Positions 16,041 to 30,501 of a DNA stretch of 34,916 nucleotides are shown piece after piece. The DNA comes from a virus. Every line of letters starts with the position of its first letter. Within the stretch, counting starts at the first letter, position 1. The notes beneath the pieces are model-generated. The model was not told where the DNA came from, did not search any database, and worked only from the letters and a program-made list of their open reading frames with translations. The position numbers were made by a program, and so were the translations under genes. The DNA lies in the IMG/VR virus record IMGVR_UViG_3300021961_010493, positions 1 through 34,916 of that record. One strand, given 5' to 3'.

Positions 16041-16357
16041 TGTTGATCGACTCAGGATTTTCAGCCAATGATATCATTGCCATGCGGATCACGGGTGGTG
16101 ATGAAGTTATAGCGAAATTCATATCACAGGATGAAAAAACCATTAAAGTATCCAAACCACTGGCATTGGCGATGACCCAACAGGGCATTGGCATGACACA
16201 GTATCTCATGATGGGTGACATGACTCGCGAATTTGTGTTCAACAAGACATCTGTGGTTACCATGCAAAAAGCCAACAAATCTGCGGCTGACAACTACATC
16301 AAAGGAACAACGGGTATTACTCCTGCTTCTTCAATTCCACCTTTACAAACAAAGTAG
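16040..16357 (+). CDS. Small beta-barrel-like protein coupled to nrdB
   Basis: This encodes 105 residues from ATG 16040, which shares one base with the nrdB stop; longer upstream in-frame starts would lie inside nrdB and are not preferred. The sequence IIAMRITGGDEVIAKFISQD, then TIKVSKPLALAMT and FVFNKTSVVTM looks like the five-strand Sm/Hfq-like fold seen in small T4-like phage proteins of unknown role ('G-x-E-[VI]-[IV]-[AG]-[KR]'). A tail of Ala/Ser/Pro follows. RNA binding is conceivable but unproven. Confidence 0.7.
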   Translation: MLIDSGFSANDIIAMRITGGDEVIAKFISQDEKTIKVSKPLALAMTQQGIGMTQYLMMGDMTREFVFNKTSVVTMQKANKSAADNYIKGTTGITPASSIPPLQTK

Positions 16358-16376
16358 ACAAATTTTTAATCTGAGC

Positions 16377-16384
16377 ATAAAATA
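16377..16384 (+). promoter_or_regulatory. Late-like box before tmRNA
   Basis: ATAAAATA (in CATAAAATAG) lies directly before the first tmRNA piece and could start it near 16390. The match to TATAAATA is partial. Confidence 0.3.
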
Positions 16385-16605
16385 GTATTGCTGATGCTTG
16401 ATGCTATCTCGGACTCCGGGGCAGTACCGGACACCTCCACCATTTCAATCGCTTAAAACATCTTCGGGTGTTCTGAGGGGGTGAAATAGGCTCGACGGAT
16501 AGAGTAGTTGGCAAATACAAATGCAGATGAAAATCTAGCACTTGCGGCCTAATTTAGGCTGACGGGGTTTGGCCCACCTGGCAACAGAAAGGGCCATTTA
16601 AATTA
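16385..16605 (+). ncRNA. ssrA: Transfer-messenger RNA, circularly permuted two-piece form
   Basis: The acceptor piece comes first: T-stem TCCGG/CCGGA with loop GGCAGTA, then the 3' acceptor strand CACCTCC, discriminator A, and an encoded CCA ending at 16442. The coding piece begins at 16477 with GGGGGTGAAATAGGCTCGAC, whose GGGGGTG pairs with CACCTCC (7 bp, one G-U). The tag reading frame is 16511-16552. ACTATC-type helix P2 is supported by CTATC (16404-16408) opposite GATAG (16498-16502), and GGCCC/GGGCC (16571-16575, 16591-16595) forms a likely pseudoknot stem. The 34-nt spacer 16443-16476 to be removed holds a C-TTCG-G hairpin. This permuted order is typical of alphaproteobacteria (and some other lineages). 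The outer ends are estimates. Confidence 0.92.
16511..16552 (+). other. tmRNA-encoded proteolysis tag
   Basis: GCA-AAT-ACA to GCC-TAA encodes ANTNADENLALAA. It starts with Ala-Asn as resume codons usually do and ends ALAA, the ClpX-recognised end of the E. coli tag (ANDENYALAA). Confidence 0.93.
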
Positions 16606-16634
16606 AATACTCACATATAAAGAAAGGTACAGTA
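16602..16634 (+). promoter_or_regulatory. Late-like box and ribosome site after tmRNA
   Basis: ATTAAATA (16602-16609) immediately follows the tmRNA. AGAAAGG (16621-16627) is 7 nt before the GTG at 16635. Confidence 0.4.
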
Positions 16635-16793
16635 GTGAAAGTTAATACAAACCCATTGATTAGATTTATCGTTAAATGCAGAATGTTCTATGCGGACATC
16701 CGTGGACATCACGGCAAGAAGTGGGACTACGAACCTAGCAAATATTATATGGGAGGAATTCAACGTGGCAGAATCAAAAAACGACGATGGTAA
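16635..16793 (+). CDS. Short basic, aromatic protein (52 aa), easily missed
   Basis: GTG 16635 with AGAAAGG 7 nt upstream opens a 52-codon frame: a hydrophobic start (VNTNPLIRFIVKCRMFY), a central RGHHGKKWDYEPSKYYMGG and a basic end IKKRRW. Its 3' part overlaps the next gene's start in another frame, with that gene's ribosome site inside it. Well-spaced Shine-Dalgarno, non-random composition and the need to fill an otherwise empty interval support it. No family is recognised. Confidence 0.6.
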   Translation: MKVNTNPLIRFIVKCRMFYADIRGHHGKKWDYEPSKYYMGGIQRGRIKKRRW

Positions 16794-16962
16794 ATTAGAA
16801 CTTTCTATCAGAGTACTTGGCAATGAATTGATTGCTATCAAAATGGAAGTGAATGACTTTAAAATGAAATGGTTGGTGATCGGTGTGGCAACACTGGTAG
16901 GATTGGGATATGCTGTGTCATCATTTGGTCCAAAACTGATGGACACATTTGGAGCATTATAA
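16765..16962 (+). CDS. Small protein with C-terminal membrane helix
   Basis: This encodes 65 residues from GTG 16765, chosen because GGGAGG (16751-16756) lies 8 nt upstream; an in-frame ATG at 16690 would give 90 residues but lacks a ribosome site and covers the short basic gene. The N-terminal part is charged and helical (DDGKLELSIRVLGNELIAIK), and a membrane segment follows (WLVIGVATLVGLGYAVSSF). It lies one base before the next gene, which has the reverse plan (membrane helix first, coiled coil after), suggesting paired membrane partners. Confidence 0.7.
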   Translation: MAESKNDDGKLELSIRVLGNELIAIKMEVNDFKMKWLVIGVATLVGLGYAVSSFGPKLMDTFGAL

Positions 16963-16963
16963 A

Positions 16964-17443
16964 ATGTGGAAGTGGATAGGTTACATCACCGCAGTCCTGC
17001 CTCTGATTGGTGTGGTGTATGGAGGCTTAAGAATCACCAGTGATCTACAAACATCGATTCAACAGTCTATACAAACATCAACAGATGCTCACTCAAGGAT
17101 AGATTCTATTTCACAATTCCAACAAGACATCAACAAGCAACTGTTAGATTTACAGTCAATCAGTGCTGAAGTGAATGGAATTGTAGGATCATTAGAGCGT
17201 CAGAAAGATGACACAGTCACACGTGGACAACTGGATACTCTGAGAGATCAGATATACGCACTGAGAGACACAGTTGAGCAGATGCGTGACACGTCAAACA
17301 AAGTTTCAGATATCTATAGCAGACTTGACAAGATGGAACGTGAAGTCAACAACACACAGATAGATGATGATCAACGCATTCATAATGCCCTCAAGGACAT
17401 TGAAGAAATATACAGAAGGCTTGATAGGGCCAAGATTGATTAG
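16964..17443 (+). CDS. N-terminally anchored coiled-coil protein
   Basis: This encodes 159 residues from ATG 16964. One membrane helix (MWKWIGYITAVLPLIGVVYG) is followed by a long Gln/Asp/Ser-rich coiled coil (DLQTSIQQSIQTSTDAHSRI to DIEEIYRRLDRAKID) with heptad spacing throughout. There is no lipobox or cleavage motif, so it is a signal-anchored protein whose coiled coil faces the periplasm or the cytoplasm. An i-spanin-like shape is possible, yet there is no adjacent o-spanin. AGGAG for the next gene follows its stop directly. Confidence 0.75.
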   Translation: MWKWIGYITAVLPLIGVVYGGLRITSDLQTSIQQSIQTSTDAHSRIDSISQFQQDINKQLLDLQSISAEVNGIVGSLERQKDDTVTRGQLDTLRDQIYALRDTVEQMRDTSNKVSDIYSRLDKMEREVNNTQIDDDQRIHNALKDIEEIYRRLDRAKID

Positions 17444-17451
17444 GAGATAAA

Positions 17452-17877
17452 ATGTACGAATACAAATGTGAAATATTAAAAGTGGTGGACGGTGACACTG
17501 TGGATGTGGACATCGACTTAGGATTCGGTATTTGGTTAAGGAACGAACGAGTCAGAATAATGGGCATTGACACACCTGAATCCAGAACCAGAGATAAGGT
17601 GGAGAAGAAATTCGGATTGGCATCCAAAGCCAAACTAAAATCACTGCTGGGCAAAACAGGTGTCCTTAAAACACAGGTAAACAAGAACGGCGAAGACATG
17701 AAGGGCAAGTTCGGTCGTATCCTTGGAGACTTCCAAGTGGGTGTTACCACAGCATCGAAAATACTGTGCGAAGAAGGACATGCAGTACCGTACTTCGGCG
17801 GATCCAAGGATGACGTTCAAGCACAGCACAAACTCAATAGAGAAAGATTAGTCAGGGACGGTATAGTCAAACTGTAA
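17452..17877 (+). CDS. Staphylococcal-nuclease-like (thermonuclease) protein
   Basis: This encodes 141 residues. VVDGDTVDVDIDLGFG and RVRIMGIDTPESRTRDK give the SNase OB-fold signature: Asp 13 and 15 region for calcium, Arg in 'VRIMGID' and Glu in 'TPES'. The later KGKFGRILGDF supplies the second conserved Arg. There is no signal peptide, unlike secreted thermonucleases, so it would act inside the infected cell, perhaps in host DNA or RNA breakdown. AGGAG lies 5 nt before the ATG. Its stop overlaps the next gene (TAATG). Confidence 0.9.
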   Translation: MYEYKCEILKVVDGDTVDVDIDLGFGIWLRNERVRIMGIDTPESRTRDKVEKKFGLASKAKLKSLLGKTGVLKTQVNKNGEDMKGKFGRILGDFQVGVTTASKILCEEGHAVPYFGGSKDDVQAQHKLNRERLVRDGIVKL

Positions 17878-18530
17878 TGAAACTGTTTGCCTTAGGTTGC
17901 AGTCTAACCTACGGGCATGGCTTGCCTGACTGTGTGGGCGAGGACATCAAAAATCCAGGTCCCGTGGCCAGCGATCATGCATGGCCCCGCATGTTGTCCG
18001 ACATGTTAGGTGTCGACTGCGTTAATCTTGCACTTCCGGGCATCAGCAACAAATACATACTCAAACGCATATTAGAAACAGCCATTCAACGACAAGACAT
18101 GGTCGTGGTGCAATGGACTTACTTTTCCAGATGGACGGTGTTCAAGGATGACCAAGACCATCAACACATCGGCCCATGGAAAAATGACAGTTTCAAAAAT
18201 TTCTTGGAAAATTATTACACCGACGCCGACTGTGTATTCAATAATGTGCAGATGATAGATCATGCTTGGTTGCACCTTAAATCCATAGGATGTCCTTTTG
18301 TTTTCGCGTGTGCGGAAAAAGGCAACGAAAAATTTTGGAATGAGGAAGACAAGATCAAACATCTGTTCAACCAAAGCGACTTCATCCATGCCCGGTTCGA
18401 CTCGAGCATAAAGGATTTCATGGTGGACAAGGCATTGGACGATCGCCATCCGGGCGAACACAGTCATAGATCTTATGCAAAATACCTAAGAGATCTGCCA
18501 ACTTTTGCCGAGTTGACAAATACCAAATAG
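17877..18530 (+). CDS. SGNH hydrolase-like protein, second copy type
   Basis: This encodes 217 residues beginning MKLFALGCSLTYGHGLPD, the G-[CD]-S block I of SGNH hydrolases right at the N-terminus. WPRMLSDMLGVDCVNLALPG follows as in phage members, MVVVQWTYFSRW stands where block III (G-x-N-D) usually lies but lacks an obvious Asn, and DDRHPGEHSHRSYAKYL carries the D-x-x-H end. The missing Asn may mean altered chemistry. It shares this layout with the protein at 773, so the two are probably distant paralogues. It is cotranslated with the nuclease. Confidence 0.75.
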   Translation: MKLFALGCSLTYGHGLPDCVGEDIKNPGPVASDHAWPRMLSDMLGVDCVNLALPGISNKYILKRILETAIQRQDMVVVQWTYFSRWTVFKDDQDHQHIGPWKNDSFKNFLENYYTDADCVFNNVQMIDHAWLHLKSIGCPFVFACAEKGNEKFWNEEDKIKHLFNQSDFIHARFDSSIKDFMVDKALDDRHPGEHSHRSYAKYLRDLPTFAELTNTK

Positions 18531-18540
18531 ACTTTACAAT
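18513..18540 (+). promoter_or_regulatory. Sigma70-like promoter for hydrolase gene
   Basis: A perfect TTGACA (18513-18518) and TACAAT (18535-18540) are 16 nt apart. The -10 ends 6 nt before ATG 18547, so the predicted start of transcription is at the start codon. Confidence 0.6.
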
Positions 18541-18546
18541 ATAAAC

Positions 18547-19101
18547 ATGATGAGAATACTATTAGTGGTGGTAGCGTTCTTTTTGGGATCAACATGGTGC
18601 AAACTTACCCATGCGTTCGACTACAATATAATCGATCCTGAACTAGAACCCGAAGCCTATTGCATGGCACAGAACATACTGTTCGAGTCCAGCACAGAAC
18701 CCATGGCGGGCAAGATTGCTGTGGGATTGGTGGTCCTCAACCGAGTGAACGACAATCGTTATCCGAACACAATCTGCGAAGTGATCAAACAAGGACCTGA
18801 GTACGAATCTTGGAAAACACAGAAGGACGAAACACTTGATGATGAAGACAGAATTTATTATCCTGTAAAAAACCGATGCCAGTTTTCTTGGTACTGCGAT
18901 GGCAAGTCAGATGAAATCATTGCCTCTGAAAATTGGTACAAGGCACAGATCGTTGCACTTCAACTGTTGGACGGCAAGTTCAAAGGCATGATAGAAGGTG
19001 CTACTCATTACCATGCCAGTTGGGTCAACCCTGCCTGGAGACATGAACTAACTTACATCGGACAAGTGGGCGATCACTTGTTTTATAGGTGGGAATCATA
19101 A
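18547..19101 (+). CDS. Exported SleB-type cell wall hydrolase (Hydrolase_2)
   Basis: This encodes 184 residues. A hydrophobic N-terminus (MMRILLVVVAFFLGSTWC) looks like a signal peptide or signal anchor. The rest matches SleB/CwlJ-like hydrolases: AYCMAQNILFESSTEPMAGK with the conserved catalytic-type Glu in 'E-[AS]', VGLVVLNRVNDNRYPNTICE, CQFSWYCDGKSDE, and THYHASWVNPAWRHEL before a final GDHLFYRWES. Such enzymes cut peptidoglycan glycan strands. With an N-terminal export signal it could be a Sec-exported endolysin. The gene's own promoter and its one-base overlap with a lipoprotein-like gene suggest a lysis or envelope unit. Confidence 0.88.
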   Translation: MMRILLVVVAFFLGSTWCKLTHAFDYNIIDPELEPEAYCMAQNILFESSTEPMAGKIAVGLVVLNRVNDNRYPNTICEVIKQGPEYESWKTQKDETLDDEDRIYYPVKNRCQFSWYCDGKSDEIIASENWYKAQIVALQLLDGKFKGMIEGATHYHASWVNPAWRHELTYIGQVGDHLFYRWES

Positions 19102-19418
19102 TGAAAGTATTGACCTGCCTGATCATGTTGGCCTGCAACAATGCTTCTCTGACCATGTGGACTGGCCATGTGGACCAAGCCAGCCTGATCAATCCTGCAT
19201 TCCAACACTCCATGGACAAGACACAAAACGGTGCTGTGACGTATTGGAACGACCCTACAACCAAAAAAAGTGGTTACATCAAGCCTCTTTACGCATCAAA
19301 GAAGTATGCAGGCCACTGCAGACACTTCGAAATAGCATACTTTTATCCAGATAAAGAGGGCACATATCACTACGGCATAGCCTGTAGAAACAAAGATTCT
19401 TTCTGGCAAGTTAAATAA
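19101..19418 (+). CDS. Small lipoprotein with surface-antigen-like (17 kDa) domain
   Basis: This encodes 105 residues from ATG 19101, sharing one base with the upstream stop; GTG 19089 is a less likely start. The N-terminus MKVLTCLIMLACNNAS resembles a lipobox (M-L-A-C). The rest (AVTYWNDPTTKKSGYIKPLY; GHCRHFEIAYFYP; YHYGIACRNKDSFWQVK) follows the 'W.NP.TG..G.V.P ... CR.F ... G.ACR...G.W' pattern of Rickettsia-type 17-kDa surface antigen domains. Together with the exported hydrolase just upstream it may act at the outer membrane, for example as a spanin-like or surface-altering protein. The domain likeness is by eye. Confidence 0.65.
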   Translation: MKVLTCLIMLACNNASLTMWTGHVDQASLINPAFQHSMDKTQNGAVTYWNDPTTKKSGYIKPLYASKKYAGHCRHFEIAYFYPDKEGTYHYGIACRNKDSFWQVK

Positions 19419-19443
19419 TAAATAAAAGCGAAGGAATAAAACA
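19417..19443 (+). promoter_or_regulatory. Late-like box and ribosome site for gene 19444
   Basis: AATAAATA (19417-19424) is followed by GAAGGA, 9 nt before ATG 19444. This is the long-leader type, as in the other apparently abundant genes. Confidence 0.45.
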
Positions 19444-20094
19444 ATGTGGTCAAACTCAGGTGATATTAGACACTTAAAACATTACAGAGTAACTGTAGAC
19501 ATGTCAGCATACATGACAGAAGAAGGCACTCGCGGTGGCGGTGTTACACCCAACGGAAACTTTCCGGATGGAGTCAAGCACTACTACGCAACAAACCTAA
19601 CTGGCACCAAAAACTCAACAAGAGCAACTACCAATGCCAAAGCACTCAACAGAGAGCGAGGTTTGATGAGATGGGAACAGGTTGTTAAAAATCTTCAAGT
19701 AAATTCAAACTGTGAAATTTTGGACATAGAAATTGTAGAAGCAAATGGTGATGCTCAGGCAACCAATCTACAATTCACAGTGGCCTACGAAGACACAGAC
19801 TCAATCAATATCACAGGCACATCCATTGATGGATCAACAGTCAACAACACAGTTTTATTAAGAATCAAAGAATTGGTAGCACAGGGCATCAACTGTGGCA
19901 CACCAATATCAAATGACTCAACAGTAGCATCAGGCACCATCATAGAACTAAGAACTGTGTACAAACCTGCAACAACTGACACAGAGATTTCGTCAGTCAC
20001 AGCACAATCACCAGATGACACAGGTGAGATATTTGATTCGATCACAGTCGCACAGATTACCACAACTAAATTGGTAAGCGGCGAAGATTCATAA
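19444..20094 (+). CDS. Unknown, probably abundant late protein
   Basis: This encodes 216 residues with no signal peptide. The N-terminal part is basic (SNSGDIRHLKHYRVTVDMSA), followed by Gly-rich TRGGGVTPNG, NFPDGVKHYYATNLTGTKNS and RERGLMRWEQVVKNL, and a beta-rich Thr/Ser/Asp C-terminal half (EDTDSINITGTSIDGSTVNN). Late-like box, ribosome site and single-gene layout suggest strong late expression; a virion surface or tail component would fit the composition. I do not recognise a family, and see no clear alignment to the proteins at 4674 or 6238. Confidence 0.8.
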   Translation: MWSNSGDIRHLKHYRVTVDMSAYMTEEGTRGGGVTPNGNFPDGVKHYYATNLTGTKNSTRATTNAKALNRERGLMRWEQVVKNLQVNSNCEILDIEIVEANGDAQATNLQFTVAYEDTDSINITGTSIDGSTVNNTVLLRIKELVAQGINCGTPISNDSTVASGTIIELRTVYKPATTDTEISSVTAQSPDDTGEIFDSITVAQITTTKLVSGEDS

Positions 20095-20131
20095 TATTTT
20101 TTTCCAAAAAATTTTCACATAAACATATGTG

Positions 20132-20410
20132 ATGAGAAAATATAAAGTCGAGAAATCAGGCCCTATCTTTTGTTCACCGGACAACGGTAAAACAGTCTTC
20201 ATACAACACAAGAATGGTAATAAAACCCTTGTGTACGAATCCGACACAGCGAAATACGATCGCCAAGCATCACGTGAATCATACCTTTCAGACTCGCAGG
20301 CCTGTTTCATCAGAGACAAATATCCTGCCCTCAAAGATGCTTGGAATCAGTACAAGGAAGTGTGGGAACTCACCGTTACCGACGATGATTTGAACTATCC
20401 TTGGTACTGA
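20132..20410 (+). CDS. Small unknown soluble protein
   Basis: This encodes 92 residues from ATG 20132 (a GTG three bases earlier is possible). Basic N-terminus (MRKYKVEKSGPIFCSPDNGK), a beta hairpin (TVFIQHKNGNKTLVYESD) and a helical C-terminal half with many aromatic residues (DAWNQYKEVWELTV) ending NYPWY. No ribosome site or known motif is seen. The upstream region is A/T-rich. Confidence 0.65.
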   Translation: MRKYKVEKSGPIFCSPDNGKTVFIQHKNGNKTLVYESDTAKYDRQASRESYLSDSQACFIRDKYPALKDAWNQYKEVWELTVTDDDLNYPWY

Positions 20411-20414
20411 TTTG

Positions 20415-20422
20415 CTTAAATA
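20415..20422 (+). promoter_or_regulatory. Late-promoter-like box CTTAAATA
   Basis: The box ends 7 nt before ATG 20430, the same spacing as at 8004 and 10965. No Shine-Dalgarno is seen. Confidence 0.45.
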
Positions 20423-20429
20423 TTAGATT

Positions 20430-21845
20430 ATGTTTCTAATTGTATTGGCATTAATATGTGCATTGACCATCTCTGGCGTTGCGATATTCTATTCAGTGAT
20501 AGGACTGGGCGCCATATTTGCGGCGGCCAAAGTTCCAATCTATGTGATGGGAGGAGTGTTGGAAGTAGCCAAACTTGTCACGGCATCCTGGCTGTATCAA
20601 AACTGGAAGAACATTCCATTCCTGCTTAAAACATATTTGACCACTGCTGTCGGAATATTGATGATCATCACATCATTGGGTATATTCGGATTTTTATCCA
20701 AAGCACACGTCGAACAGGCCACACCAGCGGCTGAAACCATCGCCATCATTGACAGACTGGATGAACAAATACTAAGACAACAGAGCACCATCGACAATCT
20801 CACAGCAAAGATTGAAAGACTGCAGGGTGGAGGCAATATCAATGTAAATGATCAAATTGCTCGTGAACAGCAGATCATCGACAATGCAGATGATAAAATC
20901 AAAGCAGATGTTGAACTGATCCAGACCAAAATATCAAACACCCAAAAACAAATAGATGACATACAAATAGATGCAGACAAGAAGATAGACATAGCACGGA
21001 CAGATTCAAAGGAATCCATTCAACGACTGAGAGACGATGCTGATGCAATTATAGTATCGGAACAAAACAAATTGGCACAGCTGGACAAAGCAGTCAACGA
21101 TGTGCTGAATGCCAACAAATCATTCTTCAATGAAGAACAAGAAGCGGCCAAACTCAAAGAATCACAAAAACCAGAACGCAATCAAATAGACGTCAAGATC
21201 AATCAAACCCAAAAGCAACTGGCACAGGACATCAATGCGATCAACACACAGACTGACACCAAGATCGCTGACATCCAAGGTGTTGCAGATGCACAGATAA
21301 CCGATCTCCGTGCTAAAATAGACGGGTTTAATGCTGAAATAAGCGTCTTACAAGCCTCTGTTGCAGAAGAAGTAGCACTTGCCAAGCAAAGAATCAATGA
21401 GATCAACACAGCGGCGATTACAGCAGGAGACAATGCAGAACTACAAATCCGAACTTTCGAACAACAAATAAATGAAGCATACGACACAATAGATGGACTG
21501 AATGCAGAAAAATTCATTGCTGAATCCAAGATAAGAGATCTTGAAGCAGAAGTTGGTCCTATCAAATATATTGCTCAATTTTTCGATGCAGACGGCGAAG
21601 TTGATCTGGAGAGAGCTGTGACATGGTTGATCATTACCATCATGTTTGTGTTCGATCCCCTGGCTGTGTTGCTGTTGATTGCTGTGAACATGAGCCTCAA
21701 GGCAAGATATGGTTGGTCATTCGAAGGGCATGGACATTTGACTGCCAAGGAGTCAGAGTCACTGAACTTGAACAAGCCACATAGAGTGTCTGTGTTAGAA
21801 AAGGTTGTAGAAGACAAATACAAAAAAGGAGAAAACAATGGATAA
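20430..21845 (+). CDS. Large membrane protein with long coiled coil
   Basis: This encodes 471 residues. Three hydrophobic segments at the N-terminus (about 1-22, 24-45 and 66-92, the last YLTTAVGILMIITSLGIFGF) are followed by some 290 residues of Gln/Asp/Ala/Ile-rich coiled coil (RLDEQILRQQSTIDNLTAKI to ESKIRDLEAEVGP) and a final membrane helix (WLIITIMFVFDPLAVLLLIA, about 394-420). The plan, hairpin anchor, long stalk and return helix, suggests a protein that bridges or scaffolds at the membrane. I recall unnamed membrane coiled-coil proteins in T4-like marine phages. Two short coiled-coil genes follow, the first overlapping it. Confidence 0.85.
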   Translation: MFLIVLALICALTISGVAIFYSVIGLGAIFAAAKVPIYVMGGVLEVAKLVTASWLYQNWKNIPFLLKTYLTTAVGILMIITSLGIFGFLSKAHVEQATPAAETIAIIDRLDEQILRQQSTIDNLTAKIERLQGGGNINVNDQIAREQQIIDNADDKIKADVELIQTKISNTQKQIDDIQIDADKKIDIARTDSKESIQRLRDDADAIIVSEQNKLAQLDKAVNDVLNANKSFFNEEQEAAKLKESQKPERNQIDVKINQTQKQLAQDINAINTQTDTKIADIQGVADAQITDLRAKIDGFNAEISVLQASVAEEVALAKQRINEINTAAITAGDNAELQIRTFEQQINEAYDTIDGLNAEKFIAESKIRDLEAEVGPIKYIAQFFDADGEVDLERAVTWLIITIMFVFDPLAVLLLIAVNMSLKARYGWSFEGHGHLTAKESESLNLNKPHRVSVLEKVVEDKYKKGENNG

Positions 21846-22053
21846 ACAAGAAATAATCAACGATCTATGGAAACGCTATTCAAGGACTCTTGAAAGGCTC
21901 AACGAGGCATTAGACCAATTGGCCCAAAAACCCAAGGAAGTGGAACGCATCGTAGAAGTTGAATCTTCATTGAATGTTGAAATGCCGGATGACATCGCAG
22001 CTCTGGAAGCAAAGGTCGAGCAAAAATTAGCGGATGAACAATCCCAACAATAA
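21838..22053 (+). CDS. Short coiled-coil protein
   Basis: This encodes 71 residues, starting inside the 3' end of the preceding gene, with AAAGGAG 7 nt before its ATG. It is helical and acidic (NDLWKRYSRTLERLNEALDQ; DDIAALEAKVEQKLADEQ). It overlaps the next gene by 20 bp. Together with 22034 it may form a heteromeric coiled coil with the long membrane protein; this is context only. Confidence 0.7.
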   Translation: MDKQEIINDLWKRYSRTLERLNEALDQLAQKPKEVERIVEVESSLNVEMPDDIAALEAKVEQKLADEQSQQ

Positions 22054-22378
22054 GATAGCAATTGGAATCCTTTTATCCAAATACTCCAAAGTGCTTGGAT
22101 CTCTCGACGCCTGCTTGGACAAAATCAAACAACTGAGGCAGAAAGTGAAAGAATTAGAAAAGCAAGTCAACAAAACACAGATAGCCAGCACATCGCCCAA
22201 CATAGATTATTGGGGTAGGCCAAAAACTTCAAAAAAACTGATAGATGATATGGCCTACGAACAACAGACCGAACAAAGATACAGAAGATTGGCCAAGGAA
22301 GTCAAGGCAAAGAAATTGGATATAAAAATGTTGAGCGAACAGGAACAGATCATTGTGGAAAGGCTGTTAGATGAATAG
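22034..22378 (+). CDS. Basic coiled-coil protein
   Basis: This encodes 114 residues. A helical Lys/Gln/Glu-rich sequence (YSKVLGSLDACLDKIKQLRQ; KVKELEKQVNKTQ), then a short Pro/Trp linker (SPNIDYWGRPKTSKK) and another helix (EQRYRRLAKEVKAKKLDIKM). The linker resembles 'YWGRPK' joints in small phage helical proteins. It starts in the tail of the preceding gene and overlaps the next by 8 bp. No function is assigned. Confidence 0.7.
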   Translation: MNNPNNKIAIGILLSKYSKVLGSLDACLDKIKQLRQKVKELEKQVNKTQIASTSPNIDYWGRPKTSKKLIDDMAYEQQTEQRYRRLAKEVKAKKLDIKMLSEQEQIIVERLLDE

Positions 22379-22619
22379 GATAACATTCTGCTCAGATCCT
22401 GACACAGAAAACAATTCACACTGCTTCGGCCTCGAGAATTTCAACGACAATACCATCAAGGAAATTCTAAACCATGTCGAAGATGACACAACATTTTACC
22501 TTATCGATAAAAAAAGTTCTAATCAATGGTTGAATATTATAAGAAAAAAAGTTAAAATAATATTTGACTGCAACAATGATTCAATCCAACAAATAAAACA
22601 TACATGCCAAAAAAAATAA
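22371..22619 (+). CDS. Small unknown protein before clpX
   Basis: This encodes 82 residues (MNRITFCSDPDTENNSHCFG to IKHTCQKK) with four Cys, an acidic middle and a basic end (WLNIIRKKVKIIFDCNNDS). It overlaps its upstream neighbour by 8 bp and the clpX start by 16 bp. The tight link to clpX suggests joint expression; a specificity factor for ClpX would be an attractive guess but nothing shows it. Confidence 0.65.
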   Translation: MNRITFCSDPDTENNSHCFGLENFNDNTIKEILNHVEDDTTFYLIDKKSSNQWLNIIRKKVKIIFDCNNDSIQQIKHTCQKK

Positions 22620-23791
22620 TAGACAAATGTGCTTTCTGTGGCAAGTCCAAGGAGGATGTACACAAACTAATCGCTTCTGACAACACAGCTATATGTGATG
22701 ATTGCGTGTCCAAATGCTCGACTATTCTGGAGGATGAAAAGAATCCGTCCAAGGCAAAAGCACTCAGCATATTAGATGTTGATCCACAGGAGATAAAATC
22801 TTATCTTGACACCAGCGTGATAGGACAAGATGAAGCAAAGAAACAAGTCGCAGTCAGCGTGTATCTTCACTACAAGCGTTTGTCAAATCCAAACATTTTG
22901 GAAAAGTCAAACATATGCATGATAGGGCCAACAGGTTCTGGCAAGACACTGCTGGCAAAAACCATAGCAAAATTTTTGGATGTACCATTCTACATCGCAG
23001 ACTCCACCACACTGACAGAGTCTGGCTATGTGGGAGATGATGTCGAGACCGTGATAGCAAGTTTGGTCGAGGCAGCGGATGGGGACATCGAACGTGCCGA
23101 GAAAGGCATAGTGTTCCTTGATGAAGTGGATAAGATTGCAAGGAAATCAGAGAACGTTTCTATCACAAGAGATGTGTCGGGTGAAGGAGTTCAACAGGCA
23201 CTGCTCAAAGTCATAGAAGGCACCAAGTTGAAAGTGCAGATGAAAAGGAACAGGAAACACCCACAGGGAGATTCAATTGAAGTTGACACTTCGAACATCC
23301 TTTTCATATGTTCCGGAGCATTCGTAGGACTGGATACCATCAAGAGGAACTCCACAGGAGTTGGATTTTTACATCCTGAAGCGGACAAAAAGGTCAAGTT
23401 CTCAGAAACCACAGACGATCACCTCATCAAGTACGGCCTGATACCAGAGTTCGTTGGCAGGGTTGGTAGCATCGTTGAATTACAAAAACTCACCGTCAAA
23501 GAATTGGAAGACATCATCAAGGTGTCATCCATCAGTCCATTGAAACAGTATCAGATGGTGTTTGATACCGAATCAGTCGAACTGACCATCGAAGATGAAG
23601 CGATCACTAAGATAGCGGAAAACTGTTGGAATTCGGACATCGGAGCACGTGGGATCAAGAATTACTTTGACAAGATTCTCAAACAAACCCTGTTCAACAT
23701 CCATGCCCTCAAGAAGAAAAAACTCGCTAAAATATTGATAAAATGCGACTCGGTTGACAACATGTCCGATCCACTATATACTTTTAACTAA
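22604..23791 (+). CDS. clpX: ATP-dependent Clp protease ATP-binding subunit ClpX
   Basis: This encodes 395 residues, near the bacterial norm (about 424). A zinc-binding domain has Cys 9, 12, 31 and 34 (CAFCGK; CDDC). AAA+ motifs follow: Walker A GPTGSGKT (108-115), pore loop GYVG in LTESGYVGDDVE, Walker B IVFLDEVDKIA, the RKH loop in NRKHPQGD, and sensor 2 GARGIKNYF. The loop that docks on ClpP (I-G-F in E. coli) reads VGF in STGVGFLHPEA and lies in a shortened loop. This unfoldase should feed tagged proteins to host ClpP; no clpP is present in the window. It is followed at 2 bp by the bS21 gene. Confidence 0.97.
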   Translation: MPKKIIDKCAFCGKSKEDVHKLIASDNTAICDDCVSKCSTILEDEKNPSKAKALSILDVDPQEIKSYLDTSVIGQDEAKKQVAVSVYLHYKRLSNPNILEKSNICMIGPTGSGKTLLAKTIAKFLDVPFYIADSTTLTESGYVGDDVETVIASLVEAADGDIERAEKGIVFLDEVDKIARKSENVSITRDVSGEGVQQALLKVIEGTKLKVQMKRNRKHPQGDSIEVDTSNILFICSGAFVGLDTIKRNSTGVGFLHPEADKKVKFSETTDDHLIKYGLIPEFVGRVGSIVELQKLTVKELEDIIKVSSISPLKQYQMVFDTESVELTIEDEAITKIAENCWNSDIGARGIKNYFDKILKQTLFNIHALKKKKLAKILIKCDSVDNMSDPLYTFN

Positions 23792-23793
23792 TT

Positions 23794-24051
23794 ATGTTTG
23801 AAAATCACACAAGAAAACCTCGCCAGGAAAGACAGATCTCGCGACACTTTGAAGTAGAAGTGCGTGGCGATGATGTCATGAAAGCATGGCGTAAGTTAAA
23901 GAAAAAACTTATGAAAGAGCGAGTGTTGGAAGAAGTCAAAGAACGTAGATACTACCAAAAACCATCGGAAAAGAAACGCGAAACCAAAAAATTGTTGAGA
24001 AGACAAGCACTTAGACTGCGTAGAAAACAGATGGAAAAAGAAGGTTTCTAA
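23794..24051 (+). CDS. rpsU: Ribosomal protein bS21 homologue
   Basis: This encodes 85 residues. FEVEVRGDDVMKAWRKLKKK and VLEEVKERRYYQKPSEKKRE match the bS21 pattern 'V-x-x-x-[DE]-x-[DV]-x-x-A-[LW]-R-[RK]-[FL]-K-[RK] ... [VG]-[LI]-x-E-[VL]-[RK]-x-R-x-[FY]-Y-x-K-P-[ST]', ending in a basic helix (RRQALRLRRKQ). bS21 sits near the anti-Shine-Dalgarno on the small subunit and helps initiation. A phage copy could replace the host protein and shift ribosomes to phage messages. An extra N-terminal Arg-rich extension of about 15 residues precedes the core. It starts 2 bp after clpX, without its own ribosome site. Confidence 0.88.
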   Translation: MFENHTRKPRQERQISRHFEVEVRGDDVMKAWRKLKKKLMKERVLEEVKERRYYQKPSEKKRETKKLLRRQALRLRRKQMEKEGF

Positions 24052-24061
24052 TCTTAGGCTC

Positions 24062-24089
24062 TTGACATTTTAAAAATCTGCACTATATT
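24062..24089 (+). promoter_or_regulatory. Sigma70-like promoter for hsp20
   Basis: TTGACA (24062-24067) and TATATT (24084-24089) lie 16 nt apart, giving a leader of about 87 nt to ATG 24183. Confidence 0.65.
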
Positions 24090-24097
24090 ATTAAATG

Positions 24098-24149
24098 TAC
24101 ATCATAAGATGTATAAATAACCGTGTAAGATGCTTGATAGGTCTTACAC
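24098..24149 (+). promoter_or_regulatory. Late box and two hairpins in the hsp20 leader
   Basis: TACATC-ATAA-GATGTA (24098-24113) is followed by a perfect TATAAATA (24112-24119), then by the 8-bp hairpin GTGTAAGA/TCTTACAC (24123-24149). The gene thus has a host-type promoter and a late-type box in series, plus RNA structure before the ribosome site AAGGAGG. Confidence 0.6.
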
Positions 24150-24182
24150 AACATTAACTTGCTTAATAAGGAGGACAAGACA

Positions 24183-24638
24183 ATGACAAATAAATCCCTA
24201 TCAATCTTTAATCAATTAAGACCAGTAACAGTTGGTTTTGACAACATGTTTGACCACTTCGAAAGAATGTTCGACGACGATTCATTCTTTAGAACACCGA
24301 GCATGGCGAACTTTCCACCCTACAACATAGTGAAGACTGGAAAGAACACATACGATGTGGAACTTGCACTCGCAGGTTTTTCTAAGGACGACATTGAAGT
24401 TCACTACGAGAACAACATGTTGACTGTGAAGTCTAAGCAAAAGGACGAATCAGAAGAGAAAGACGAAGATGGCAACATTCTACACAGAGGCATCAGCAAG
24501 AGATGGTTTTCAAAATCATTCACAGTTGCCGACGATGTGGAAGTCAAAGGCGCTGAACTGAAGGACGGATTGCTTAAAATATCAATGGCAAGAATCCTAC
24601 CAGAAGGCAAAGAAGCCAGAACAATTGAAATAAAGTAA
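24183..24638 (+). CDS. hsp20: Small heat-shock protein, Hsp20/IbpA type
   Basis: This encodes 151 residues from ATG 24183, where AAGGAGG lies 8 nt upstream; an in-frame start at 24159 is less likely. The N-terminus (FNQLRPVTVGFDNMFDHFER) and alpha-crystallin domain (YNIVKTGKNTYDVELALAGF; YENNMLTVKSKQ; HRGISKRWFSKSFTVADDVE; LKDGLLKISMARILPE) match bacterial IbpA. The C-terminal I-x-I motif is found as TIEIK. T4-like marine phages often carry Hsp20, thought to protect during capsid assembly. A GNRA-loop terminator follows. Confidence 0.97.
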   Translation: MTNKSLSIFNQLRPVTVGFDNMFDHFERMFDDDSFFRTPSMANFPPYNIVKTGKNTYDVELALAGFSKDDIEVHYENNMLTVKSKQKDESEEKDEDGNILHRGISKRWFSKSFTVADDVEVKGAELKDGLLKISMARILPEGKEARTIEIK

Positions 24639-24645
24639 ACAGTAT

Positions 24646-24670
24646 AGGGGGTGGCAACACCCCCTGCTTT
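24646..24670 (+). terminator. Terminator with GCAA tetraloop
   Basis: AGGGGGTG (24646-24653) pairs with CACCCCCT (24658-24665) around GCAA, followed by a T-containing tail. Confidence 0.85.
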
Positions 24671-24673
24671 ATA

Positions 24674-24709
24674 TTGACAGTTAATTCATAAGAACATATA
24701 ATTTAAATA
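24674..24709 (+). promoter_or_regulatory. Consensus sigma70 promoter with overlapping late-like box
   Basis: TTGACA (24674-24679), 17 nt, TATAAT (24697-24702), both perfect. TTTAAATA (24702-24709) overlaps the -10 and ends 2 nt before ATG 24712. The transcript would be nearly leaderless. Confidence 0.7.
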
Positions 24710-24711
24710 CT

Positions 24712-25017
24712 ATGATGACACAGAGCAACATACAAGTAGAAGAAAAAGTAATACAGATCCTGCAGGAACCCAGCAAGTATGCTGTGATCTTCATGAACGA
24801 TGATCAGACTCCGATGGACTTCGTGATCAAGATGCTGATAGAACATTTCCAATACAACAACGAACAGAGTTACAAGATGATGAATCAGATCCATGAACAA
24901 GGCAAAGGTGTAGTTGCAATATATCCGTTCGAAATAGCAGAGCAGAAGGCCACAGAAGTCAAGGTGGCGGCCACTGCCAACAAGTTCCCACTCGAAGTCA
25001 AGATCGAAAAAGCCTAA
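24712..25017 (+). CDS. clpS: ClpS adaptor protein
   Basis: This encodes 101 residues. SKYAVIFMNDDQTPMDFVIK is the ClpS signature (N-D-D-x-T-P-M), and IHEQGKGVVAIYPFEIAEQK holds the conserved His-x-x-G of the N-degron pocket. KFPLEVKIEKA matches the family's end. In bacteria ClpS brings N-end-rule substrates to ClpAP. The window has clpX but no clpA, and ClpS normally binds ClpA, so it either works with host ClpA or diverts it. It has its own strong promoter and almost no leader. Confidence 0.93.
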   Translation: MMTQSNIQVEEKVIQILQEPSKYAVIFMNDDQTPMDFVIKMLIEHFQYNNEQSYKMMNQIHEQGKGVVAIYPFEIAEQKATEVKVAATANKFPLEVKIEKA

Positions 25018-25750: not shown

Positions 25751-27796
25751 TTATTTGGTTGTTGCTATGAACACGCCGGACCAATCCTTGGGTAATTTCT
25801 GTGTTTTCATGTACTCACAGCGTTCGATCCACATGTTGTAGTAGCCAGACATCTTGCCACCGAAATGCTTGGACAGCCTCTGGCAGTGCCATATGGCCTC
25901 ATCAAAATTTTGGCTTCTGTAAGCCTGGTGCATCTGATCATGCAGGTCCTTGCTCTTGTGGTAATCTGACTTTACGTCATCCAACACGGTGAAAATCTCC
26001 AGGCCAACTGTTTTACCCTTGACCGCCAAATCATCCAATTTTAGATAAAAGAAATCATCCTTGGTCCTACGCACAGTCTCTGGTCCTATGATCAACAACA
26101 CTCCATACGCCTTGCACTGTGATTCCAATCTGGCTGTGGTGGAAACAGCATCTCCCAGCACGTCGTAAGAGTGCCTTTCGGTAGATCCCATTTCACCGAT
26201 GTAACCAAGTCCGGTGTTGATGCCAGCACCCATGCCCACGGGAGGTCGTCCCTGTGCTACCAATTGTTCATTGAACTTTTCAACTGCCTTCAACATGTTG
26301 AGTCCTGTCTGCACAGCACTCTTGGGATGGTCTTCATCATCGATGGGAGCTCCATGGATGTGCATGGAAGCATCACCGATGTACTTGATGATCATGCCAT
26401 TGGCATCTAAAACTGGTTTCGTGATGGCATCCATGTACCCGTTCATCACTTGTGTCAGACCTTTCACATCGTCACCGAATGATTCACCCAGCGGTGTAAA
26501 ACCTCTGAGATCTGAAAAGCATATGCTGACTTCTTTCTTGACGCCTTCCTTGACCAGTTGGGGATTTTCCTGTAGCATCTTGACCACTGTGGGCGAAGCA
26601 TAACCACCAAACTGTTTCTTGATGGCCTGCTTCTGCATGTATTCAGAAACGAATCTATTGAACACAGCATGAAGTCCCACCAACACCGTGGTTATCACGG
26701 GCCATGAAAAATCAAACAGTAATAATCTTGTAGAATATATGTGAACAGACCCATACACAGTGCCTGCTCCAATTATAATAATAAGTCCGGCAACCACACC
26801 ATAGTGGAAGAATCTTGCGGCAACAATCAACAGCAATCCGATCGCAAACAGATAGGCCAGTTCATACATGTCTGCTAAATCTGATCTCACAATGTTGTCA
26901 CCATTAATGATGGTTTGCAGTGACACCGCCACCGGTGTGTGAGCATACTCTGTGCCCGTGGGTGAAGCAATGGTCGAGCCAATGCCTTCTGCTGTGAGTC
27001 CTATCACAACTATCTTGCCCTCAACGTGTTCTTGGGTGGCCTGCATGATTGACACAGAGGGAAATTGTTTGTTCCAACGCAACCATATGCGAGCATATGG
27101 ATCTGTGGTTATGGTAGGATAACCTGGTACTCGAACTGCTTGAACACCTGTTGGCCCTGCTTTGACTTGATAGGATGGGGCTCCTGTGGCCACACGAATT
27201 GTTTCGATGGCCATGGCAGGATATGTTTCGCCTGCAACTGTCATGATGAGTGGCATTCTTCTTACAACACCATCACGTTCTGGTGCTATGTTTAACACAC
27301 CCACACCGTCTGCTGAAGAACCCAACTCAGGTATAGGACCCAACATGCCCGGCCATTCAAACAGCCACGGTATGGGATCACCTATCTTGGCAATGCCTCT
27401 GGGCACTGCGTTCTTGTTGGTCTGGGTGGTGCCTGTCTGAGCGATGATGATGCCATTGCCTTTGAGTGCTTGTACAAGGACATCATCCTTGCCCGCACGA
27501 TCCTCTTCCGAGAATAGGATAGGCATAATAATAAGTCCAGCACCCTGTGAACGCAGATGATTTATGACATCTGCCAGATAGTCTCTGGGCCAAGGCCATT
27601 GTCCAAATGCTTCAATGGCTGGTTCGTCAAACTCAACAATCACAATGTCTTTGCTTTCAACCACAGCATCTGTGCTTTGAAGATAGTCAAATGATTTTAA
27701 ACGAGCAGTCTCTGTTAGGCCACCGTCTTGAAATCTCAGAAAGACGAGAACAGCAAGAGTGATGAGAACTGTGAGCCAATGTGTGATGTATTTCAT
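25751..27796 (-). CDS. CHASE2-domain adenylate cyclase
   Basis: This encodes 681 residues. A signal-anchor helix (about 7-22) is followed by a periplasmic CHASE2 domain (VVESKDIVIVEFDEPAIEAF; QWPWPRDYLADVINHLRSQG; VGVLNIAPERDGVVRRMPLI), three further membrane helices (about 310-385, e.g. LAYLFAIGLLLIVAARFF), and a class III cyclase domain. Metal Asp residues sit in CFSDLRGFT and IKYIGDASMHIHG; adenine-type Lys and Asp are in IIKYIGD and SYDVLGDAV. The usual Asn of 'G-D-x-V-N-x-x-x-R' is Ser here (GDAVSTTARLES), while the Arg is kept, so rate or control may differ. It would make cAMP in response to an envelope signal. CHASE2 cyclases are often found with FecR-domain proteins, as here. Confidence 0.93.
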   Translation of the reverse strand: MKYITHWLTVLITLAVLVFLRFQDGGLTETARLKSFDYLQSTDAVVESKDIVIVEFDEPAIEAFGQWPWPRDYLADVINHLRSQGAGLIIMPILFSEEDRAGKDDVLVQALKGNGIIIAQTGTTQTNKNAVPRGIAKIGDPIPWLFEWPGMLGPIPELGSSADGVGVLNIAPERDGVVRRMPLIMTVAGETYPAMAIETIRVATGAPSYQVKAGPTGVQAVRVPGYPTITTDPYARIWLRWNKQFPSVSIMQATQEHVEGKIVVIGLTAEGIGSTIASPTGTEYAHTPVAVSLQTIINGDNIVRSDLADMYELAYLFAIGLLLIVAARFFHYGVVAGLIIIIGAGTVYGSVHIYSTRLLLFDFSWPVITTVLVGLHAVFNRFVSEYMQKQAIKKQFGGYASPTVVKMLQENPQLVKEGVKKEVSICFSDLRGFTPLGESFGDDVKGLTQVMNGYMDAITKPVLDANGMIIKYIGDASMHIHGAPIDDEDHPKSAVQTGLNMLKAVEKFNEQLVAQGRPPVGMGAGINTGLGYIGEMGSTERHSYDVLGDAVSTTARLESQCKAYGVLLIIGPETVRRTKDDFFYLKLDDLAVKGKTVGLEIFTVLDDVKSDYHKSKDLHDQMHQAYRSQNFDEAIWHCQRLSKHFGGKMSGYYNMWIERCEYMKTQKLPKDWSGVFIATTK

Positions 27797-27855
27797 ATTA
27801 TGTAAACTTTCTATACATAGTTATTAACTTGCATTTTAATCCTAATTCACAAGTA

Positions 27856-27900
27856 TTTAAATATATTGGTTCATAACATTAAAGGCAAATTGGAGGTCGA
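27856..27900 (+). promoter_or_regulatory. Late-like box and ribosome site for barrel gene
   Basis: TTTAAATA (27856-27863) is followed by a leader of about 32 nt ending in TTGGAGG, 4 nt before ATG 27901. Confidence 0.4.
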
Positions 27901-29424
27901 ATGTTTAAAAGATTAATGGCTTTGTTAGCCGCTTGGGCAATGGCAACTGCGACTGCTTATTCCCACACCAACTCTATCGGTTACGTGAGTGATGCTTCGA
28001 GTAATGTGACATTTTGGTATGGCACATATCACTACACTTCTTTCAACGAAGCAGAATTAAAATTGGAAGGTGCTAATGGTACCACATACACCACAACCAT
28101 CACACAGTTTGATGAATTGTCATCCACCACACCCAACGGACTGTTTCCTGGCACCAACTATTTCACCACAGACGGCACATCTCTAATTCCTTATTCAGAC
28201 AGCACAGCGGCAGGTGGACAATCCAACACATGGCAGGGTTTGACATTTTCAGGACTGTCCGCAGGTGACTACACATTCACATACATTCCATTGGGTGATT
28301 CAGAATCCTATCAACCCAACGGCACACCCACAATGGACTGGGCACCTTGGGATGAAGTCATTAGAACTTACACAGTCACACTAAACAGTGCTTTGCTGTC
28401 AGGTGATGCCAACCAAAACGGTATCCTTGATTCATTGGAAACTTCTCCAGCATCAAATTCTTCACCCACAGTGACCAGTCAGGGTTCTTCCACAGTGACT
28501 GCCAACACAGCCACAGTGACAGCGGGTGTTCAGACAGTGGCCAGAGTTCAGACCACAACCACTTGGGACAACATGAGCGATGGCACCACACAAAACACAC
28601 AGAGTTCATCCACTACCCTGACACCGCTCACAGGCAGAGTGGATCAGCACACACAATTAAACAAAATTGCCACAGTGAACAGAGATGTTCTGCTATCAGA
28701 TCCCTACAGACAGGATGGCATTGAAGGCAAGCAGGGCGTATTTTTCATCAATGCTCACGGATCTACATTCAGCATGGCCAACGGCTATGATGCCAACTCA
28801 CAGACAGGTGGCATAGAATACAGAAGTTCTGTGAACCCTGGACATGTAGTGGGCATCATGTATAACAAAACCAGAGTAGATTTAGAGGGTCAAGACTCTC
28901 AATCAGATGTGGATCAAACACAGGTGGGGTTATACTCACACTATCAGATCGGCAACAACTTATTAAAAACTGATGTGGGCATGATCAACTCTCAGTATCA
29001 GACCAATAGATCAGTTGGCAACACTTGGAACAATCAATCTGCTGTGAATGGTTCAGATGCTTATCTGCACACCAGACTGTATGTGCCCTACAAGTTTGGC
29101 CTGACTCCTTTCGTGGGTTACTCATTCAATCAAAACAGATTGGACGGATACACAGAGACCGGTGATTCAGTCACAGCAAGAACTGTGGGCAAATCAGAAA
29201 CTGTGGATCGTGCAGTAGAAGGTGGCATCAAGATGGACTACACCGTCAGCAATTGGGACTTTGAAGCACAATTGATGCGAACCAGTTCAGACTTATCCAA
29301 GCAACACTTTGGCGTGGAATACAACTTCAGCGATTCTAAATCTGTTGGAGTAACTGTGATTAATTCAGACTATAAAGATATGTCTGCACAGACTGTGATG
29401 TTTGCACTGGATATAAACTATTAG
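27901..29424 (+). CDS. Secreted protein with C-terminal outer-membrane beta-barrel-like domain
   Basis: This encodes 507 residues. The signal peptide MFKRLMALLAAWAMATATAY with an A-x-A-type cleavage region is clear. Residues about 22-165 form a beta-rich domain (NSIGYVSDASSNVTFWYGTY; TWQGLTFSGLSAGDYTFTYI), then a short EF-hand-like DANQNGILDSLE, a Ser/Thr linker, and from about 245 a barrel-like region of alternating strands (VDQTQVGLYSHYQIGNNLLK; VPYKFGLTPFVGYSFNQNRL). The end VMFALDINY has the terminal aromatic residue needed for BAM-dependent insertion. It looks like an autotransporter-type or OmpA-like surface protein. In a phage genome it would remodel the host outer membrane. Confidence 0.85.
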   Translation: MFKRLMALLAAWAMATATAYSHTNSIGYVSDASSNVTFWYGTYHYTSFNEAELKLEGANGTTYTTTITQFDELSSTTPNGLFPGTNYFTTDGTSLIPYSDSTAAGGQSNTWQGLTFSGLSAGDYTFTYIPLGDSESYQPNGTPTMDWAPWDEVIRTYTVTLNSALLSGDANQNGILDSLETSPASNSSPTVTSQGSSTVTANTATVTAGVQTVARVQTTTTWDNMSDGTTQNTQSSSTTLTPLTGRVDQHTQLNKIATVNRDVLLSDPYRQDGIEGKQGVFFINAHGSTFSMANGYDANSQTGGIEYRSSVNPGHVVGIMYNKTRVDLEGQDSQSDVDQTQVGLYSHYQIGNNLLKTDVGMINSQYQTNRSVGNTWNNQSAVNGSDAYLHTRLYVPYKFGLTPFVGYSFNQNRLDGYTETGDSVTARTVGKSETVDRAVEGGIKMDYTVSNWDFEAQLMRTSSDLSKQHFGVEYNFSDSKSVGVTVINSDYKDMSAQTVMFALDINY

Positions 29425-29699
29425 GTTTTTGATTTTTTAACAGAGTCAGCAATCTTTTTGTTTTCTTTGTTTTCCAATTCCTCAATCATCTTGAGTTTGG
29501 TGTTCAATCTGATCAAATCATTGTCCAACATTCTGATTCTGTCTATGAGTGCTATCAGAGTCTTGTTGGCTTCGCCCAGCACGGGTTTGATTTCTTGGGT
29601 AACCCACTGCCAAATGTAGTAGACAAAATAGCCAAGACCCATGGCGGCTATGATTGGAAAACCGTATTGATTAATGGCGTCTACTAATCCGTTACTCAT
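29421..29699 (-). CDS. Membrane coiled-coil protein, paralogue A
   Basis: This encodes 92 residues. A membrane helix (FPIIAAMGLGYFVYYIWQWV) precedes a coiled coil (ANKTLIALIDRIRMLDNDLI; RLNTKLKMIEELENKENKK). It aligns by eye with the next gene: 'GFPI.-A-.-.-G-YFV' and 'LI.-LDNR..-.-NDL'. The pair share a one-base overlap and are probably a duplicated gene. Related short proteins occur, to my memory, in T4-like marine phages; a holin-like or membrane-scaffold role is possible. Confidence 0.75.
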   Translation of the reverse strand: MSNGLVDAINQYGFPIIAAMGLGYFVYYIWQWVTQEIKPVLGEANKTLIALIDRIRMLDNDLIRLNTKLKMIEELENKENKKIADSVKKSKT

Positions 29700-29977: not shown

Positions 29978-30025
29978 ATACCATTATTTAATATAATGTA
30001 CTGCTTAAATCCATTGCTGTTTTTG

Positions 30026-30033
30026 CCTAAATA
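30026..30033 (+). promoter_or_regulatory. Late-like box CCTAAATA before csgF
   Basis: It ends 3 nt before ATG 30037 and 6 nt before a second in-frame ATG at 30040. With T4 spacing the transcript would start at the second ATG, so translation may begin there. This is the same style as before phage genes elsewhere in the window. Confidence 0.45.
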
Positions 30034-30036
30034 TAC

Positions 30037-30498: not shown

Positions 30499-30501
30499 TG
30501 T

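Follow-up and report, generated by a model that had tools for sequence, protein, structure and literature searches.

Genes and features of the locus

The 34,916-base IMG/VR virus record IMGVR_UViG_3300021961_010493, analysed over its whole length and called the window here, is probably a fragment of a phage genome and carries a gene for transfer-messenger RNA (tmRNA) and, downstream of it, genes for ClpX, the ribosomal protein bS21, the small heat-shock protein Hsp20 and the N-degron adaptor ClpS (Table 1). The original prediction had taken these five as a phage-encoded set for ribosome rescue and proteolysis, and searches with Rfam, Pfam and NCBIfam bear out that all of them are present, four of them close together, with 2.4 kb from the start of ClpX to the end of ClpS. 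In the explanation that we consider probable, the genome of a marine T4-like phage holds a proteostasis island and, apart from it, a tmRNA of the phage's own. The genes, their order, their motifs, the selection on the tag, the co-occurrence with further Clp genes and an element in the hsp20 5' untranslated region (UTR) are observed directly in the sequence.

ClpX contains a single AAA+ module, matches the Pfam families zf-C4_ClpX (PF06689) and AAA_2 and passes the NCBIfam clpX equivalog model TIGR00382 (429 bits; cut-off 370.75). It can be aligned over its full length with E. coli ClpX and keeps the four zinc-binding cysteines of the N-terminal domain, the GYVG motif, the RKH loop and the ClpP-docking tripeptide in the form VGF (IGF in E. 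coli), the GF of which is invariant in 22 of 22 phage ClpX proteins. bS21, Hsp20 and ClpS each score above their Pfam cut-offs. ClpS does not reach the NCBIfam equivalog cut-off (87.2 versus 149 bits) and reads as a divergent member of the ClpS family in which the N-degron pocket is kept (NDD..TPM and a histidine); across phages the asparagine/aspartate pair of the pocket is retained and the histidine is found in 10 of 11 proteins. One ClpS without the pocket histidine (L211, 8794-9096) lies in a locus that also has no clpX in its slot.

Table 1. Features of the window discussed in the text, with the evidence for each.
Feature	Position	Strand	Evidence
tmRNA acceptor piece (H2 strand, T arm, acceptor 3' strand, CCA)	16386..16442	+	RF01849/RF04321, covariation, RNAalifold consensus; 5' end approximate
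Intervening segment of permuted tmRNA, predicted to be excised	16443..16476	+	alignment
tmRNA coding piece	16477..16598	+	RF01849
Tag reading frame ADENLALAA-stop	16523..16552	+	sequence; LALAA-stop codons only synonymously variable in clade
ClpX, 395 aa; zinc finger, Walker A/B, GYVG pore loop, RKH loop, VGF tripeptide	22604..23791	+	Pfam, NCBIfam, alignment
Ribosomal protein bS21	23794..24051	+	PF01165, TIGR00030
Hsp20, IbpA-like small heat-shock protein	24183..24638	+	PF00011, phrog_432
ClpS N-degron adaptor	24712..25017	+	PF02617, 91.9 bits (cut-off 23)
ROSE-like RNA-thermometer candidate, hsp20 5' UTR, ending at start codon	24120..24185	+	RF02523, covariation, custom model
Sigma70-like promoter of tmRNA gene, TAGACA-N17-TAAAAT	16355..16383	+	scan; TAGACA-N16/17-TAAAAT or TATAAT in five relatives compared
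Promoter-like TTGACA-N17-TATACT before S21, inside clpX end	23754..23782	+	scan, conserved in relatives
Sigma70-like promoter of hsp20, TTGACA-N16-TATATT	24062..24089	+	scan; visible in clade sequences
T4-late-promoter-like TATAAATA before hsp20	24112..24119	+	conserved position; background 0.011 per 220 b
Terminator-like hairpin after hsp20	24645..24666	+	scan; hairpin at same place in four relatives
Perfect sigma70 consensus before clpS, TTGACA-N17-TATAAT	24674..24702	+	12/12 in window

The permuted tmRNA and its tag

The tmRNA is detected by two Rfam covariance models, alpha_tmRNA (RF01849; 79.9 bits with a gathering cut-off of 50, 16338-16598 on the plus strand) and tmRNA_permuted (RF04321; 67.4 bits with a gathering cut-off of 47, 16390-16552). 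ARAGORN reports no tmRNA in the window, which was rejected as an argument against the gene because the covariance models detect it and because ARAGORN does detect tmRNAs in relatives. The molecule is of the two-piece, permuted, alpha type, its acceptor piece with the CCA lying 5' of the coding piece, and the acceptor strand CACCTCC followed by ACCA (16432-16442) forms seven pairs with the partner strand GGGGGTG (16477-16483), among them the alanine identity pair G3-U70. A blastn search of the window tmRNA against cultured phages gave no match. In the permuted tmRNAs of two relatives (L007, 4855-5065; L009, 3910-4122) the intervening segment, from the CCA to the coding piece, measures only about 20 nt, which is unusually short.

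Comparison within the clade argues that the tmRNA is under selection. In six sequences the T stem is 100% paired and three of its five pairs are changed on both sides; the acceptor stem of the window is out of register by one column in the alignment used for this count, and in the shifted register RNAalifold pairs it, two of the pairs being changed on both sides and a U-G pair being the same in 6/6. The tag is encoded by GCA GAT GAA AAT CTA GCA CTT GCG GCC TAA (ADENLALAA), and among five distinct clade sequences its last five codons (LALAA) and the stop hold seven variable sites, all of them synonymous, where random changes would be expected to be synonymous in 31% of cases; by simple arithmetic, which is rough since the sequences are related, seven independent silent changes would arise by chance about 3 times in 10,000. 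The N-terminal end of the tag shows no such constraint (ADEN, AEET, DNESFIFEEE, ADEYAYEEE). This pattern fits purifying selection on the C-terminus as a degron of the ClpX/ClpA type and agrees with the original prediction that the tag ends in a sequence of the kind recognised by ClpX. Very long tags of 27-29 amino acids (...TVSGKN[IV]KFSAR...LAV) occur in two jumbo relatives (L106, L107) whose ClpX proteins carry RKT or RKV in place of RKH, a possible covariation of tag and ClpX in two related cases only.

Conservation of the gene order

A scan of viral contigs carrying ClpX yielded 80 loci. Eight of these (L002-L009), which are 68-70% identical and include near-duplicates (L002/L004/L006 and L003/L005), show as far as each contig extends the order nrdA-nrdB-tmRNA-SNase-...-clpX-S21-hsp20-clpS, so that the layout in the window is not a matter of chance. 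Rfam places a tmRNA above threshold in seven of the eight, the tmRNA of L009 (39.7 bits with RF01849) having been read by eye. About 60 further contigs, mostly 45-50% identical, retain the order ClpX-(S21)-Hsp20-ClpS, and the cultured phage PA5oct (MK797984, Arenbergviridae) has it as clpX-S21-hyp-hyp-hsp20-clpS (hyp, hypothetical gene), with ClpA and ClpP encoded elsewhere in its genome. Random scattering in relatives, named in the original prediction as an outcome that would speak against it, is therefore not what is seen for ClpX, S21, Hsp20 and ClpS.

In one locus a full-length phage DnaK lies between clpX and hsp20 (L010, 11500-13380); GroES-GroEL is found there in L029, L034, L039, L040, L045, L048 and L052-L054, and GroES alone in L042-L044. 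The clpX and clpS genes assigned to 'Acinetobacter phage MD-2021a' (CAKLQF020000005.1, L125) were not counted, since the clpX contig looks like a bacterial chromosome (tig, clpP and TonB genes).

Further Clp components in relatives

Among the 40 whole records behind ClpX loci that were surveyed, 19 have RF01849 matches (ARAGORN agreeing for several), 22 encode ClpP and 13 the ClpA N-domain. On the contigs of at least 240 kb with both ClpX and ClpS, tmRNA, ClpP and ClpA occur together in nine of ten (G013, G016, G022, G024, G025, G026, G028, G031 and G038), the tenth (G011) being without tmRNA and ClpA; these are not nine lineages, as G024, G025 and G026 look alike and G013 overlaps G015. A sister contig of the window (G008; 114,778 bases) encodes tmRNA, ClpA and a canonical ClpP (best PDB match 280 bits), as well as a peptide deformylase, DnaJ and a GroES-like protein. 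ClpX, ClpA, ClpP and ClpS are thus all present in G008 and in the nine large contigs. The last visible gene of the window has a counterpart in G008 at a distance of about 4-5 kb from clpP, and judging from this contig it may be only that the window stops before clpP is reached. The same sister contig (L098-L103) also holds a superoxide dismutase and a phosphate-binding-type protein (Pfam) and, by eye, several radical-SAM-like open reading frames.

These findings modify the proposal that the phage redirects host ClpP: because relatives encode their own ClpP and ClpA, host ClpP need not be borrowed. SmpB was found in none of 35 related records, so that host SmpB would be needed for trans-translation.

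One pathway or overlapping modules

If the parts work together, the phage tmRNA, charged with alanine by the host alanyl-tRNA synthetase and delivered by host SmpB, would free stalled ribosomes and add ADENLALAA to broken proteins, which phage ClpX, with its ssrA-recognition and ClpP-docking motifs intact, would unfold for ClpP. This ClpP is phage-made in relatives and may be encoded just beyond the fragment. ClpS would feed N-degron substrates to ClpA of the phage or the host. In E. coli, ClpS inhibits the action of ClpA on ssrA substrates, and by analogy the phage protein may lower ClpA activity on ssrA-tagged proteins and leave these to ClpX. Hsp20 would hold unfolding proteins, bS21 would be the phage version of the ribosomal protein, and the net effect would be to keep ribosomes and folding capacity free and to recycle host or faulty proteins through a long infection. 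The virus would then carry nearly the whole bacterial protein quality-control pathway minus SmpB, with a degron of its own, which makes it testable whether phages replace host proteolysis or only hijack it.

Several points weigh against this explanation. Of the Clp set, the 35-kb window itself holds ClpX and ClpS, and ClpP and ClpA are not in it; the surveyed records are related, so the co-occurrence counts are not independent events; and the activities, the partners and the net effect are all inferred from homology. ClpX could, moreover, serve replication or assembly instead, a point taken up below. Finally, the tmRNA mostly occurs without a phage ClpX and the Clp set of PA5oct without a tmRNA match, so that the tmRNA and the Clp genes need not work jointly. 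A permuted acceptor-arm pattern chosen without reference to ClpX was found in at least 120 viral stretches, and in 25 of these pattern-picked records (22-181 kb, most of them fragments, three of 155-181 kb) a ClpX zinc finger is present in one and none is shown in 24. One locus (L211) has tmRNA, S21, Hsp20 and ClpS without ClpX in its slot, the tmRNA lies far from clpX in the jumbo relatives, and PA5oct has no tmRNA match above chance though it encodes ClpX, ClpS, ClpA and ClpP. Because of the 24 records, L211 and PA5oct, the tmRNA and the Clp island are to be seen as two modules that overlap here. The original prediction is partly supported: the order of the Clp, S21 and Hsp20 genes is conserved in relatives, but the tmRNA is not tied to a phage ClpX.

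The same observations feed an alternative that we regard as somewhat unlikely, namely that two unlinked cargo modules merely overlap in this clade and that no joint route from tag to ClpX has been selected. The tmRNA, widespread in marine T4-like phages, would then work with host ClpXP, and the Clp/chaperone island of large phages would serve other substrates. The tmRNA-selected records without a visible ClpX, which include the contigs of 155-181 kb, the distance between tmRNA and clpX in jumbo relatives and the retention of tmRNA and ClpS in L211 all fit this, as does the phage Melnitz, which combines a two-piece tmRNA with a curli block, gives no ClpS match and is not among the ClpX matches listed. 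However, the presence of tmRNA in nine of the ten large ClpX-ClpS contigs and the ClpX-type ends kept by the tags favour the joint route.

An improbable alternative has ClpX unfold proteins for the replication of phage DNA or the assembly of virions rather than for the proteolysis of tagged proteins, comparable to host ClpX acting on Mu transposase or lambda O, with Hsp20 and the chaperones as assembly helpers. This is the published view for Agrobacterium phage Atu_ph07 and Sinorhizobium jumbo phage AP-J-162 (PMC6102473, PMC11242549); the clpX genes of Atu_ph07 and Phosso adjoin topoisomerase and IF3 genes, and the late-type promoter of hsp20 would suit a role in assembly. In the window, however, clpX has S21, Hsp20 and ClpS as neighbours, the ClpP-docking GF is invariant across the phage proteins compared, and most of the long relatives encode ClpP. 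Shielding from the host, in which ClpS blocks host ClpA, Hsp20 prevents aggregation and phage ClpX competes for host ClpP, is very improbable: the inhibition of ClpA by E. coli ClpS and the failure to find Aat, which makes N-degrons, in 14 phage records would agree with it, but many relatives encode a ClpA in the same genome and ClpS has kept its N-degron pocket.

A ROSE-like thermometer candidate and promoter-like sites

The hsp20 leader of the window matches the Rfam family ROSE_3 (RF02523) with 31.2 bits (E-value 4e-5 for 149 bases), as do 10 of 20 hsp20 leaders from relatives, with E-values up to 0.15; one leader among the 20 (L257) came from the wrong place. Since the scores (22-34 bits across leaders) stay below the gathering cut-off of 43, the element is called ROSE-like rather than a member of the family. 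Like ROSE_3, it has a GAUGCC..GGGUC hairpin and a UYGCU that precedes the Shine-Dalgarno site of a small heat-shock gene, and it differs in belonging to phage genes and in its score. The hairpin is 96% paired with five of nine pairs changed on both sides, a covariation score reached by 0 of 500 shuffles, and the motif UYGCU...AAGGAG is found in nearly all loci inspected; the covariation test covers the hairpin, while UYGCU, which would pair with the Shine-Dalgarno sequence, hardly varies. A custom model built from 11 leaders and searched over 876 kb from 53 sources gave 48 matches, about 10 of them training sequences, nearly all directly upstream of Hsp20 and the remaining few before phage DnaK or upstream of GroES-GroEL. 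Its matches include Mosig and three cyanophages with weak E-values (0.01-0.7); ROSE_3 itself gave no match in the cyanophage UTRs, where the element was seen by eye and with the custom model only. The candidate was also noted at L255-L274, conserved from cyanophages to jumbo phages.

Translation of Hsp20 is probably temperature-dependent through this 5' UTR. A wider proposal, possible although we hold it at less than even odds, gives marine T4-like and jumbo phages a common proteostasis island gated by temperature: ROSE-like thermometers would control Hsp20, and in some phages also DnaK or GroESL, beside ClpX, ClpS and bS21, and together with phage ClpP, ClpA and tmRNA the island would amount to a protein quality control of the phage's own during infection. 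If the element senses heat, abundant marine phages, cyanophages among them, would have their chaperone output tied to the temperature of the water. In the literature, with most subscription journals outside the search, no link of phage hsp20 to RNA thermometers was found, and a ROSE-like candidate before phage Hsp20 is new as far as searched.

Because separate conserved promoter-like sites precede the genes, these look like a neighbourhood rather than one operon; the sites are consensus matches, which do not prove use. Before clpS, all five clade members compared (the window and four others) have a perfect TTGACA-N16/17-TATAAT. Upstream of hsp20 a T4-late-type [TAG]ATAAATA occurs in most loci, about 70 nt from Hsp20 in the clade and 130 nt in jumbo relatives. 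TAAATACTC, considered as a repeated motif, was rejected, being present as a single copy.

Precedents in other phages

Most parts of the set are of known kinds. PA5oct has the same order, as described above, and differs from the window in the missing tmRNA match, in a ClpX that is only 39% identical and in its Pseudomonas host. Atu_ph07 encodes ClpX, ClpA, ClpB, ClpP, ClpS and DnaJ (PMC6102473) and has a tmRNA count of 0 (PMC11242549, Table 1), with its clpX outside any S21-Hsp20-ClpS cluster. AP-J-162 has one tmRNA, six Clp proteins, Hsp20, DnaJ and GroES (PMC11242549), but its genes are not described as one system, its clpX lies beside IF3/topoisomerase and its host is rhizobial. ClpP, ClpS, ClpA and ClpX have been reported from jumbo phages (PMC7824862), and tmRNA and SmpB from huge phages (PMC7162821). 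Within ten genes of phage bS21, Hsp20 was found in 127 genomes and Clp genes in 50 and 47 (Chen et al., 2022, PMC9723584), although that survey gives neighbourhood statistics only and does not mention tmRNA. The statement in the original prediction that the parts were known singly and not as a whole set was thus too strong, most of the set having precedents in PA5oct, Atu_ph07 and AP-J-162, but no paper was found that treats these genes as one system. What is new about the present case is the way these genes are combined in a Kyanoviridae-like clade, together with the ClpP and ClpA that co-occur with them and the ROSE-like leader of hsp20.

Placement and host

Curli, FecR and adenylate cyclase genes and a 407-aa protein tie the window to HTVC008M, Melnitz and cyanophages (Kyanoviridae), and a marine, T4-like, Kyanoviridae-like source phage is part of the explanation judged probable above, in one grade with the rest of it. 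Melnitz, HTVC008M and Mosig share with the window the curli-FecR-adenylate cyclase block, S21, Hsp20 (71.5% identical in Mosig) and, in Melnitz, the two-piece tmRNA, which is published together with the curli genes (PMC9004378); they differ in giving no ClpS match, and none is among the ClpX matches listed. Mosig has an AAA gene where clpX would lie, but it was rejected as a ClpX, being of the CbbQ/NorQ type. A chimera or host contamination was rejected, since relatives as well as Melnitz and HTVC008M have the curli/adenylate cyclase block that adjoins the cluster. The alpha-type tmRNA suggests an alphaproteobacterial host, with Melnitz as an example of how tmRNA type can mislead about the host.

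The block itself (25751-34436) consists of a CHASE2 adenylate cyclase and csgF-csgG-curlin-FecR, as in HTVC008M and Melnitz, and for the latter it has been published as a possible lysis pore (PMC9004378). On the minus strand (3856-4545), an open reading frame resembles, by eye only, a CMP-KDO cytidylyltransferase, suggesting sugar or surface modification.

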